Shown piece after piece: positions 35,522-45,512 of a stretch of 64,000 bases of DNA. The notes under the pieces were generated by a model. The model was not told the DNA's origin and ran no database searches. It saw nothing but the letters and a program-made list of their open reading frames with translations. Within the stretch, counting starts at the first letter, position 1; the number at the start of each line of letters is the position of its first letter. Source of the stretch: Tritrichomonas musculus (Eukaryota > Parabasalia > Tritrichomonadida > Tritrichomonadidae); contig JAPFFF010000021.1 of NCBI GenBank assembly GCA_039105265.1, forward strand, positions 1,736,001-1,800,000. Direction: 5' to 3'. The position numbers and the translations under genes are program-made.

Positions 35522-37151
35522 TTGATCATCAATTCAATTAGTGACCAAAAACGATCAGAAAATAAAGGTCTAATTTCAGTATTTTATCAGGATTTCATTG
35601 AAGAATGTTGGTCGCAAGATCCAGATGAAAGACCGACATCTGATGAGATTGTATATCTTCTGAAGAATGATTCTCGTTTTATCACTGATTTGGTCAACGG
35701 CGATGAATTCTTGATTATGTGGATTCAATTGAACAGTCAGATGAATTGAGTGATATGAATTCAAAGCGATCATTTCAAAAAGTTGTTTATCGCATGAAGA
35801 AGAAAAACAAAAAACAAAACTTCACTCATCAAGATAGTTTTTTGAATCTAAGTAAATTTGAGAAGGGAGAAATCATTCAAAAGAGCGATTTTTCAAAGAT
35901 CATTCGTGTCGTTGATAAAGAAACAAAAGCTGAATATGCAGCCAAAGTATCAATGATTGAAATGGACGATCTTTCTGAGAGTGACATCATTAGTCTCTCA
36001 CGTGAAGTGAATATTTTATCCCAATTGAATCATCCATCAATATTGAAATTTATCGGTTACAGTCCAATAAATTTCAAGAATGAACCGAAGCCAGTAATCG
36101 TCACCGAAATTGTGTCTAACGGTTCATTGGAGGATCTACATCAAGCCAATGAAAATAAGAGAAAAGAAAAAGGCTGGAATTCAACAAAGAAGCTGATCAG
36201 CATCTACGGAATTGCACATAGCATGGCCTATCTTCATTCAAATGACATTCTTCATCGTGATTTGAAGCCAAGTAACACTCTGCTTGATAGCTCATTATAT
36301 CCGAAATTGACTGATTTTGGATTCAGTGTGAAACGCCATAAAGCATCAGGTTTAACTTTCCAATCATCGTTGAAAATAAGTGGCAGCACCTGAAATTTGG
36401 AGTTGTAATGAATTCACAAAGGCAAGTGATGTCAGACTGGACAACCAAGTTGCGCACCACAAGTACGCGCTGATGCTCGCCTTCAGCAACGATGAAAGTG
36501 AAGCCGACGAGCGGAAATTCAAAACTGCCAGGAACCACCTCGAGAAAGCCGCTAGCCAGGGCTTCAGTCTCTCGTGCTTCCTGCTTGCCCGTCTTCTTCA
36601 CGAGCACTTCGAAGAAGACGAAAGAGCTCTGCGGTCTGCGAGAGAAGGAGCAGAGAGAGGCGACAAGTTTTCGCGGTGCATTCTTGGCCACTTCATTGCA
36701 CGAGGAATCGGAGCCAAGAAAAACCGCCAAGAAGGAGTCCGCCTGATGCTTGAAAGCGGCATTGAAGACTACTGCAAGTTGGCCGCGACGGACATCGGCC
36801 TCTACTTCCTCGAGCTTTCCAAGGAAGAAGATCAAAACAAGGAGAACTCAGCCAAGGCCTTCGAGTGGTTTGAGGAAGCCTACAAGATGAAGAAGACGAG
36901 CGCATCAGTCAACAACTACGCGCTTTGCTTTTTGAATGGAATTTTCGTTGAGCGAGACATTGAAAAGGCGAAAGCAATCTTCACCGAAGGAGCTGAAAAA
37001 AGGAGACACAGTGTCGATGTGCCATCTGGCACACATTCTGGAAACACCAGACACAGTCCAATCAATTGAGTATTATAAACGTGCTGCACAACTGGGACAC
37101 AAAGAGTCGCAAGCATGCTATTCTTCAATGATTAAAAATCAAAAATATTAA
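35522..37151 (+). pseudogene. Decayed TKL kinase-Sel1 fusion gene
   Basis: It opens with the C-terminal end of one kinase (DFIEECWSQDPDERPT). A frameshift near 35,712 leads into a second kinase with intact N-lobe (AAKVSMIEMDDLSES), HRDLKPSN loop and LTDFGFS. A frameshift near 36,380 splits the activation segment from APEIW. The C-lobe after KASDV is missing: the sequence jumps to five or so Sel1-type repeats, which are then broken by a frameshift near 37,015. From 36,410 to 37,065 GC is distinctly higher than in the kinase part. Kinase-Sel1 fusions are a trichomonad family; this copy has lost function. Confidence 0.8.
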
Positions 37152-42706: not shown

Positions 42707-45298
42707 ATGGAAATTCAGGATTATATCGACCAAAACAAAAATCTTTATATCAATTTTTTCGAATATATCGACAGCCATCAAGATGATAGTCACGGATATC
42801 AAAATTTAACAGATTTTTTAACAACTCATGATTATTTAAATAATGTAGAAAGTTTGACAGAATTTTTACTACTTATCTGTAAAGTATCAAACAATCACAC
42901 CAGAGAGAACAATTTAATTGATAATATATATAAAATTCTATTTTTCCTAAAAGATAATCTAATCCACAATTTTACCAAAGTCGAAATATTCAATATTTTT
43001 AAGGGCAACAAAATTCTTCTTCTATTTTTGTTAACCAATTTAATTGAAATAGATGATACAATTATCAATCTTCTAGATGAATTAGATTATATTAAATATT
43101 TTTATTATTTAGCCAAACCTTTCCTTGACAAAGAAAAGCAGCAAGCAATCGAATTCGACCTGAGTCAAAAAAATGACAAAATATTTGAAAACTTTGAAGA
43201 AAAATGCAAAAAAGGAGAAAATGACGATTTTTTATGCGAATTAATTCGAAATGATGAAGTTGAACAATTTATTCGATACGTTAATCAAAATGTAATTCCA
43301 CTTAATAGTGTTATACACACGTCGATTTTTGAAACGAATCCTTTTCTACTCAAACATGAAAACAAAACGACATTCATTGAATATGCTTCATTTTTTGGCG
43401 CCATTCAAATTTTTCAATACTTACGATTAAATTCAATTGAATTAACAGAATCAGCATGGATATATTCAATTCATTCAAATAATCCAGAATTGTTCAGTCT
43501 TTTCAAAGAAAATATTAACTTGCCTTATAATGAAGCTTTTTTTTCAAGATTGCTTAAAGAAGCAGTAAAATGTCACCACAATGATATTGCAAATTACATA
43601 ATTGAGAACTACGTACGAAATAAATATATGCTAAATAAATTCGCATTTCGTTATCATAATTTTTCATTTCTGACATGTGATATGAAAAGAGATTTGGATT
43701 TCTTTAGTGCAATCAAATATCATCACAACAAACTTGCTAAAATTATGATGAAGACAGATGATTACGTTAAATTAAAAATAAATAATGGTTCAGCTTTGAA
43801 ATTAGCTGCAAATTATAATAATCAAGATATTGTTGATATTTTTTTTTCCAAGATTGGCAACGTTATTGAAAAAAGCTTTTTCAAAAACAACAAAAAAATG
43901 GAAAAAATTATAATTCCGCCAACAATTGTACAAATTAAAGAATCAGCATTTCAAGATTGCATATCACTCAAAGAAGTTGTAATACCGCCATCGGTAACAT
44001 CAATAGGACCATATGCATTCAACAAATGCAAATTGCTGAATCATGTGATAATTCCACCTTCAGTTACCAAAATCGAATCCTTTGCATTTGATGAATGTCC
44101 TAATTTAACTGATTTCCAAGTTGATTTCGATAAAACCACTGATTTTGGATTCCGTGCGTATAATGGATGCCAAAATTTCAAGATAACTTATCAGTTCATC
44201 AATGTTCTTCTATTCACCAGTGTCGACAATAAAAATTACGAAAATTTGAAAAATTATTTTAAAAAAGAACAACCATATAAAATAAGGATAAAAACATTCG
44301 ATTCAAGTGATTATATTGGAACACACATTAGATATTTGTTCAGGTGTGATGTTGTGTTTTTATTTATTGATTCAACAAAAAAAATTAATGAACAATTTTT
44401 ATCTGTAAAAAGTTCTGTTTATGACATGGTTATGTGTTTATATTATTTTCGAATCCATGAAGTAATTGTTGTCGTTGACAAAATGGATGATGAATCTGTA
44501 AATTACAGTAAAGAACGATTTGATGAAATTAAAAATGAAATGACATCTATTTTTATTGAAAATGGATTCAATTCAAACCAGTTTCAATTCGTTCCAATTT
44601 CAGAAGATAAACATGAAAACATTGACAATAAATCATCTAATTTTTCATGGTGGATTGGTCCAACGTTGGCTGAAGTTATCAATTTACTTAAACCTCCAAA
44701 ACGTCAATATTTAGATAAGCTTCGTTTTGTTGTATTACATGGTCCAGACACTGATGATTATGACACTGATCATATTTTGGCTGGAATTGTTAAATCAGGA
44801 GTTTTGTCTATGCCTTGTTATCTTAATTCTGCATCCAATGAAATGCGCAATGCTAACTTATTATATAGAAGAGATACTAATGAAAAAGAATACGCTTATC
44901 CTGGTGAATATGATGATTTTACTTATTTTTATTATTTTCCTTCTAAACGTGATTTGTTGGGAGCTTTAACTGAAAAATTAACGAGACCTCTAAAATGCAT
45001 ATCTTTCACAGCAACATTGATCATTCTTAATTCAATCAGTGAAATAAAGGTTGGATGGGATCCAAATATTCAATTTGTTGGTGGATATTTAAAGTGCAAT
45101 TTGGTCAAAATGGAAAATGGAGAAGAAATTAAAAGCGTCCAAAAATATGAACGTGTTAAAGTTACTTTTGAACCATCTGATTTCTTAGCTTTGGAAACAT
45201 ATGATGATTATCCTGGCATCGGAATTTTCAGCATTACACAAAATAATTTTTTAGTGGCAATTGGTTTGATTTCAAGCGTTGAAAAAAAAAAGCAATAA
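42707..45298 (+). CDS. Ankyrin-like/BspA-LRR protein fused to a degenerate EF-1-alpha-like module
   Basis: 863 residues in one clean frame. Residues ~1-380 are of the trichomonad DUF3447/ankyrin-like type (SAWIYSIHSNNPELFSLFKE). Residues ~383-470 are three BspA LRR units (IKESAFQDCISLKEVVIPPS). From ~495 to the end the sequence follows all three domains of eEF1A: a G-domain stretch VVVDKMDDESVNYSKERFDE, then FVPISED, WWIGPTLAEV and LLKPPKR; domain II (VKSGVLSMPCYL); domain III (FTATLIILN, YDDYPGIGIF, AIGLISSVEKKK). The P-loop GHVDSGKS is replaced by TSVDNKNY, switch I is missing, the DAPGHRDF region is reduced to DSSDYIG without the catalytic His, and NKMD is DKMD. Probably a non-hydrolysing binding module; role unknown. 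Confidence 0.82.
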   Translation: MEIQDYIDQNKNLYINFFEYIDSHQDDSHGYQNLTDFLTTHDYLNNVESLTEFLLLICKVSNNHTRENNLIDNIYKILFFLKDNLIHNFTKVEIFNIFKGNKILLLFLLTNLIEIDDTIINLLDELDYIKYFYYLAKPFLDKEKQQAIEFDLSQKNDKIFENFEEKCKKGENDDFLCELIRNDEVEQFIRYVNQNVIPLNSVIHTSIFETNPFLLKHENKTTFIEYASFFGAIQIFQYLRLNSIELTESAWIYSIHSNNPELFSLFKENINLPYNEAFFSRLLKEAVKCHHNDIANYIIENYVRNKYMLNKFAFRYHNFSFLTCDMKRDLDFFSAIKYHHNKLAKIMMKTDDYVKLKINNGSALKLAANYNNQDIVDIFFSKIGNVIEKSFFKNNKKMEKIIIPPTIVQIKESAFQDCISLKEVVIPPSVTSIGPYAFNKCKLLNHVIIPPSVTKIESFAFDECPNLTDFQVDFDKTTDFGFRAYNGCQNFKITYQFINVLLFTSVDNKNYENLKNYFKKEQPYKIRIKTFDSSDYIGTHIRYLFRCDVVFLFIDSTKKINEQFLSVKSSVYDMVMCLYYFRIHEVIVVVDKMDDESVNYSKERFDEIKNEMTSIFIENGFNSNQFQFVPISEDKHENIDNKSSNFSWWIGPTLAEVINLLKPPKRQYLDKLRFVVLHGPDTDDYDTDHILAGIVKSGVLSMPCYLNSASNEMRNANLLYRRDTNEKEYAYPGEYDDFTYFYYFPSKRDLLGALTEKLTRPLKCISFTATLIILNSISEIKVGWDPNIQFVGGYLKCNLVKMENGEEIKSVQKYERVKVTFEPSDFLALETYDDYPGIGIFSITQNNFLVAIGLISSVEKKKQ

Positions 45299-45512
45299 GT
45301 AAAAAATAGATATCATATATCATTTCCAGGAAATGATAATATCTTAATTATTTACTGGAACGTTTTAGAAGGCATTTACATTCCCCTCTCAAATAATTGA
45401 GTTTAATTTGAAAGGGGGATTCAAATTTCAGAATTTTTGAGCGGTTTCTCAAAACCTTATTATTAGTTTTAAATGATAAATTGAAAATTGAGTTGTATGC
45501 AAAAATGACCTA

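Follow-up and report, generated by a model that had tools for sequence, protein, structure and literature searches.

A putative pseudo-GTPase derived from EF1A behind leucine-rich repeats in a Tritrichomonas musculus gene, and its kinase-borne relatives

The window analysed here is a stretch of 64,000 nucleotides from the mouse gut commensal Tritrichomonas musculus (PMC11978803), contig JAPFFF010000021.1 (G000:C21:1736001-1800000), and the gene in question occupies 42707..45298 of its + strand, an open frame of 863 amino acids (aa), with the stop codon inside these coordinates, whose length of 2.6 kb agrees with the initial annotation. We tentatively favour, at slightly less than an even chance, the reading that the C-terminal module of its product is a pseudo-GTPase that descends from an EF1A of the trichomonad line and has been retained as a folded domain for docking or sensing. 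This reading is based on sequence similarity, the predicted fold, the loss of nucleotide motifs, the joining to leucine-rich repeats (LRR), past constraint on both halves of the gene, and relatives borne by kinases. EF1A of the trichomonad line would thus have given rise to a C-terminal module that lacks the nucleotide site and keeps the fold, and the nucleotide-free fold would serve for docking or sensing on a repeat scaffold. The genome searched comprised 193,395,805 bases in 746 contigs; the accessible text of the genome paper gives 756 contigs and 193.49 Mbp (PMC11978803).

The EF1A-like module and its nucleotide site

Among PDB chains, EF1A is the best match to the last 375 residues (E 5.7e-21, module residues 46-372 in a single stretch), and eRF3 and Hbs1 match more weakly. 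The structure predicted for residues 489-863 (44171..45295) matches the EF1A fold through domains II and III, as judged by VIA-align re-alignment of Foldseek's own best 1000, and a match to both domains was the structural check that the initial annotation had proposed. Chance similarity to EF1A was considered and is ruled out by this E value and the match of the predicted fold. Together with its place among the trichomonad EF1A modules, the similarity assigns the window module to the EF1A superfamily by descent, and the three-domain EF1A fold is predicted for it. The strings quoted earlier as tracking eEF1A (KMDDESVNYS, GPTLAEV, PPKR, DYPGIGIF and SSVEKK) are all present in the protein. The module start given earlier, 44190, does not fall on a codon, since codons begin at 44189 and 44192.

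Alignment with canonical EF1A of the same genome bore out the claim of an erased GTPase centre and corrected its details. G1 (GHVDAGKS in canonical EF1A) has no counterpart, so the P-loop G....GK[ST] is absent; the initial annotation was right that G1 is lost, but TSVDNKNY (residues 504-511, 44216..44239), which it read as an altered G1, comes after the first strand, at the expected site of the P-loop. Switch I is missing, KTFDSSDY (residues 529-536, 44291..44314) stands for DAPGHRDF in G3, VDKMDD replaces VNKMDD in G4 with loss of the NKxD asparagine (DKMD, residues 591-594, 44477..44488), and G5 reads SEDKHEN for SGFAGDN. The missing switch I and PGH and the change of NKMD to DKMD were therefore correctly noted, although the first half of the G domain is not just changed but has lost about 50 residues by deletion. 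Judged by P-loop, switch I, DxPGH, NKxD and G5, the module does not look like a working EF1A translational GTPase, and the loss of its nucleotide motifs qualifies it as a putative pseudo-GTPase. That nucleotide is nevertheless bound in some unorthodox way is highly improbable: solved structures of Ski7, another protein classed as GTPase-like, contain GDP or GTP according to PDB entry titles, yet here the P-loop lysine, switch I and the NKxD asparagine are all absent and the region of helix 1 is modelled with low confidence.

The likeness to eEF1A, said earlier to run through all three domains, holds for the predicted fold and much less for the sequence. Domain II (about residues 671-760, 44717..44986) is kept in the predicted fold and is barely recognisable by sequence, at 15% identity to canonical EF1A over 84 columns; domain III (about residues 764-858, 44996..45280; PF22594 and PF03143) reaches 34%. 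Pfam detects GTP_EFTU at residues 534-653 (E 1.1e-6, 28.8 bits, cut-off 26.5) and, just under its cut-off of 27, GTP-eEF1A_C at 767-855 (E 7.8e-6, 26.7 bits).

Ahead of the module, residues 371-491 (43817..44179) form BspA-type repeats of LRR_5 (E 1.6e-22, 80.2 bits, cut-off 27.7), which makes the product a BspA-like LRR protein. The ankyrin part of the earlier description fared less well, as Ank_2 at residues 334-382 stays under its cut-off (E 5.4e-5, 24.1 bits against 27.3); the protein is at most ankyrin-like and does not qualify as an ankyrin-repeat protein. The N-terminal region (residues 1-370, 42707..43816) belongs to a very large family in the genome, with 2784 first-look candidates, of which 107 were scored. 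Because L061 (by Pfam) and L054 (by eye) carry this family and LRR without EF1A, the window gene looks like an N-terminal/LRR scaffold to which an EF1A module was added.

Relatives of the window gene and past constraint

Only three public proteins matched the window protein at E <= 0.001 among 3368 candidates: P0001, P0002 and P0003, the last a fungal EF1A-family protein. P0001 (865 aa) has the complete architecture and differs at 11 aligned residues as well as in the last few. P0002 (624 aa) shares 62% identity over window residues 1-327 and 56% over 566-861, and is without what lies between these, from the last part of the N-terminal region through the LRR to the beginning of the EF1A module. 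The genome itself holds three broken or remnant relatives: a decayed copy, C15, which retains N-terminal, LRR and EF1A pieces in order, C45 with LRR and EF1A pieces, and C9, a C-terminal remnant. An assembly artefact at the LRR-EF1A junction, which would have undone the initial annotation, was ruled out, since the junction recurs in P0001, the decayed C15 copy retains its pieces in order and P0002 keeps the joined ends. By eye, an A-run marks the frame end and a short inverted repeat follows the stop codon (45280-45345), and P0001 ends otherwise there (KKKSNK versus KKKQ).

No relative named as from T. vaginalis or T. foetus appeared among the 3 matches of the 3368-candidate search, among the best 120 of 151 matches (about 692-2201 aa), or among 120 of 222 matches when the 8000 most word-sharing candidates were scored, many matches being unnamed. 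A phage collection returned one weak EF-Tu-like match in one record.

The Nei-Gojobori ratio of nonsynonymous to synonymous rates (dN/dS), computed on stretches that can be read in a single frame, with now-broken copies as the other sequence, was 0.23 (124 codons) and 0.37 (89 codons) against C15, and against C45 it was 0.15 for the LRR (94 codons; dS 1.50, near saturation) and 0.31 for EF1A (119 codons). As the broken copy drifts freely, the ratio while both copies worked was probably lower. Drift simulated over the EF1A stretch (residues 566-863) gave on average 6.0, 12.3 and 18.0 stops at 0.1, 0.25 and 0.5 changes per site, and the frame stayed open in 4/2000, 0/2000 and 0/2000 runs. Between the window module (WIN, its row name in the comparisons) and P0002, module identities of 64%, 48% and 60% stand beside 63% for the N-terminus, so that both halves are about equally conserved. 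Where the initial annotation offered selection or extreme youth, these results support purifying selection on the coding sequence and speak against a very young gene.

The same data bear on the notion of a chimera in decay, one that arose as a by-product when genes were shuffled in a repetitive genome, was once constrained and is now heading to a broken state. The accessible text of the genome paper puts repeats at 42.67% (PMC11978803), three relatives are broken or remnants, and 3/11 non-canonical EF1A loci of the genome (see below) are frame-broken; the 863-codon open frame, the dN/dS of 0.15-0.37, the intact frame of P0001 and the joined ends that are still open in P0002 at 38-44% divergence make such a fate unlikely for the window gene.

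Several points nevertheless weigh against the docking or sensing reading. With domain III at its modest identity, kept binding surfaces are not evident from the sequence; the first 50 residues of the model have a predicted local distance difference test score (pLDDT) of 40-60, and the alignment used for structure prediction contained EF1A rows, so the model is not independent of homology. P0002 does without LRR and early G domain, so not every part is needed, and three decayed relatives in the genome indicate that the gene may be dispensable.

Non-canonical EF1A modules elsewhere in the genome

The earlier description lacked the family context: most open non-canonical EF1A loci of this genome are on protein kinases and have kept the P-loop. 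A PF22594 profile search found 16 places above the cut-off, comprising two canonical EF1A genes on C5, an eRF3-like gene (C1), an Hbs1-like gene (C6) and 12 non-canonical modules at 11 loci, the window gene among them. The canonical genes, at 6491563-6492879 (+) and 6516495-6517811 (-), encode an identical protein and lie inverted about 24 kb apart, either as a palindrome or as an assembly effect. At 8/11 non-canonical loci the frame with the module is open, and C4, the second C10 locus and C23 are frame-broken. Five open loci encode a kinase, a coiled coil and EF1A: C29 (L044, 869 aa), C16 (L045, 892 aa), C10 (L009, 1258 aa), C12 (L010, 2076 aa) and C13 (L014, 1820 aa). In C31 (830 aa) an N-terminus without assigned Pfam domain precedes the coiled coil and EF1A, and C20 (441 aa) is an open frame of EF1A alone. 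The C12 gene (L010:2686-8913, -) carries behind its kinase and coiled coil two EF1A modules without any difference over the extent that they share; a stop cuts the second short inside domain III. Among public proteins, P0004 is close to C29, P0006 to C31 and P0042, whose frame is open, to the second C10 locus, and P0020 is an additional public kinase-EF1A protein. Glycine loop, AAK, HRDLK and DFG occur in 6/6 kinase rows examined. The kinase fusions suggest that a translation factor is being reused here for docking or sensing; in them a related module would bring the kinase to the translation machinery or let the kinase sense it.

Motif loss in these modules is graded. G....GKS is kept at all seven other open non-canonical loci and in P0020 and P0042. 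The DAPGH histidine, the trigger of hydrolysis in EF-Tu, persists in C10 and C12 and is replaced in 7/9 non-canonical modules (C in C31 and P0020, N in C29 and C20, S in C16 and P0042, F in C13), and other G motifs are changed in single members, for example NKLE in C13 and NEMD in P0042. In domain II, the EMHH stretch, which we take to be part of the aminoacyl-end pocket, is changed in 9/9 and also differs in eRF3 and Hbs1. The P-loop-bearing modules may thus have given up aminoacyl-tRNA delivery and mostly hydrolysis, and the window subfamily appears to have given up the nucleotide as well.

Identity to canonical EF1A is 69-73% in domain III against 35-44% in domain II for C29, C31 and P0020; the gap is smaller in C16, C10, C12, C13 and C20 (41-55% against 32-44%) and absent in C13 (43% against 44%). 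eEF1A binds actin, and a module that retains such a GTP-independent side activity could act as a cytoskeletal or other moonlighting adaptor, for which the kept (predicted) fold and the far better conserved domain III of C29, C31 and P0020 would speak; with the window's own domain III so far from canonical EF1A, we consider this improbable for the window gene.

A tree of 20 rows, built without other parabasalid EF1A and without Ski7, included the second C10 locus as P0042 and omitted the incomplete second C12 module and the pieces of C4, C23, C45, C15 and C9. Nine T. musculus modules with P0002, P0020 and P0042 form one side of 12 rows at 100/98; for a group of all 11 non-canonical rows apart from canonical EF1A, the support of 67/92 neither establishes nor rejects it. 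WIN, the most diverged of all modules, pairs with P0002 (100/100) on a branch of 2.19. Descent of the window module from eRF3/Hbs1 is not supported, as WIN stands apart from the 100/100 group of the five eRF3/Hbs1 rows. A single clade of the six kinase-borne modules was rejected (approximately unbiased test, p 0.0074), for a group chosen after the tree was seen and with long branches. The best genome match of the C29 kinase domain (75%) lies at a locus outside the 16 EF1A places; its identity to the remaining five kinase rows is 35-42%. For the C16 kinase, the best matches (55-56%) are at loci without EF1A, and C13 and C10 rank 30 and 32 among the 132 places scored out of 5238 first-look candidates. 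Given the tree, the kinase matches and the differing N-termini of C31 and the window gene, several joinings or N-terminus swaps are the simplest account, and EF1A modules were probably joined to partners more than once.

Such repeated joining to sensor-like partners (kinases, LRR), frequent decay and worn activity motifs would also fit an integrated bait: toxins or effectors directed against EF1A would bind the module or modify it, and the repeat or kinase portion joined to it would report the attack. Bacterial effectors are known to target EF1A, and plant NLR receptors carry integrated decoys, a decoy copy whose attached part reports attack. The surface under attack ought to be retained in a bait, yet the window module is the most altered of the family, and we give this explanation a small probability. 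In a broader scheme, EF1A would be a portable sensor, placed time and again at the C-terminus of kinase, coiled-coil and LRR proteins that have expanded in the lineage. With GTP hydrolysis and the aminoacyl pocket eroded, it would serve as bait for EF1A attackers or as a translation gauge, and the window gene would stand at the nucleotide-free end of the series; as a whole we regard this scheme as doubtful. For the docking or sensing reading, the roles of EF1A elsewhere point to ribosome or rescue factors, eEF1B, tRNA and actin as candidate partners.

Within the window, positions 1-24000 have a G+C content of 39-43% in 2-kb blocks, and beyond them it is mostly 23-36% with one block of 40%; the accessible text of the genome paper gives 29.47% for the genome (PMC11978803). 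Four large open reading frames in this part (1869, 762, 1720 and 408 aa) had no Pfam match above cut-off, and the part might represent an inserted element. At 35755-37069 (+), a 212-aa kinase fragment and the 198-aa open frame behind it look like one broken kinase-repeat gene. An Rfam scan of the window at gathering scores gave no match.

Comparison with known systems

EF1A is among the most conserved proteins, and the 11 non-canonical loci of one genome offer a natural series that runs from modules with the histidine through modules without it to the loss of the P-loop, with five open kinase fusions and one LRR fusion without nucleotide site. The series allows one to ask what the EF1A fold is used for without GTP, and whether signalling proteins watch translation by means of EF1A. 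A study of Parabasalia EF-1alpha, in its accessible text, argued from its own data that anciently diverged paralogues are unlikely among its sequences (PMC3253790); T. musculus has diverged EF1A modules, though within larger genes, which calls for caution with EF-1alpha as a phylogenetic marker. In the accessible open-licence PMC literature we found no description of an LRR-EF1A architecture, in line with the initial annotation; in the main text of the genome paper, as far as accessible, 'elongation factor' and 'ankyrin' occur 0 times (PMC11978803), as do Trichomonas, kinase and ankyrin in the accessible text of a survey of translational GTPases, which treats the re-made N-termini of Hbs1, Ski7 and eRF3 (PMC4342817).

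With eEF1A/aEF1A the window module shares the predicted three-domain fold, the domain order, and stretches in the second half of the G domain and in domain III; unlike them it lacks P-loop, switch I, G3, NKxD and G5, has a domain II that is almost unrecognisable by sequence, and sits fused behind an LRR scaffold. Saccharomyces Ski7 follows the same logic, an EF1A-type fold with a recruiting N-terminus, without shared descent. Ski7 is of the Hbs1 branch, with structures that contain GDP or GTP by their entry titles, whereas the window module has no P-loop and lies outside the eRF3/Hbs1 rows; the Hbs1/eRF3 descent that marks Ski7 was not found for it, in a tree without a Ski7 row. Its N-terminus belongs to another family than the Ski-complex/exosome-binding N-terminus of Ski7. 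Ski7 occurs in only some yeasts, and EF1-family motifs have been lost from its post-G and C domains, according to the accessible text of PMC2613156.

The trichomonad BspA-like LRR_5 proteins L061 and L054 share the N-terminal family and LRR with the window gene and differ in having no EF1A module. The public protist proteins P0124, P0126, P0127 and P0131 resemble it in that a long, otherwise unrelated chain ends in EF1A, and differ in other N-termini and in EF1A parts that score much higher on Pfam. P0124, in which Pfam finds a VWA domain, falls outside the trichomonad side of the 20-row tree; P0126, P0127 and P0131 look mutually related by eye. GCN2 is a kinase with a dead, translation-derived, HisRS-like sensor, and like the kinase-EF1A relatives it joins a kinase to a translation-derived domain; its sensor is HisRS-like, not EF1A, and the window gene has no kinase; the likeness drawn here is one of logic.
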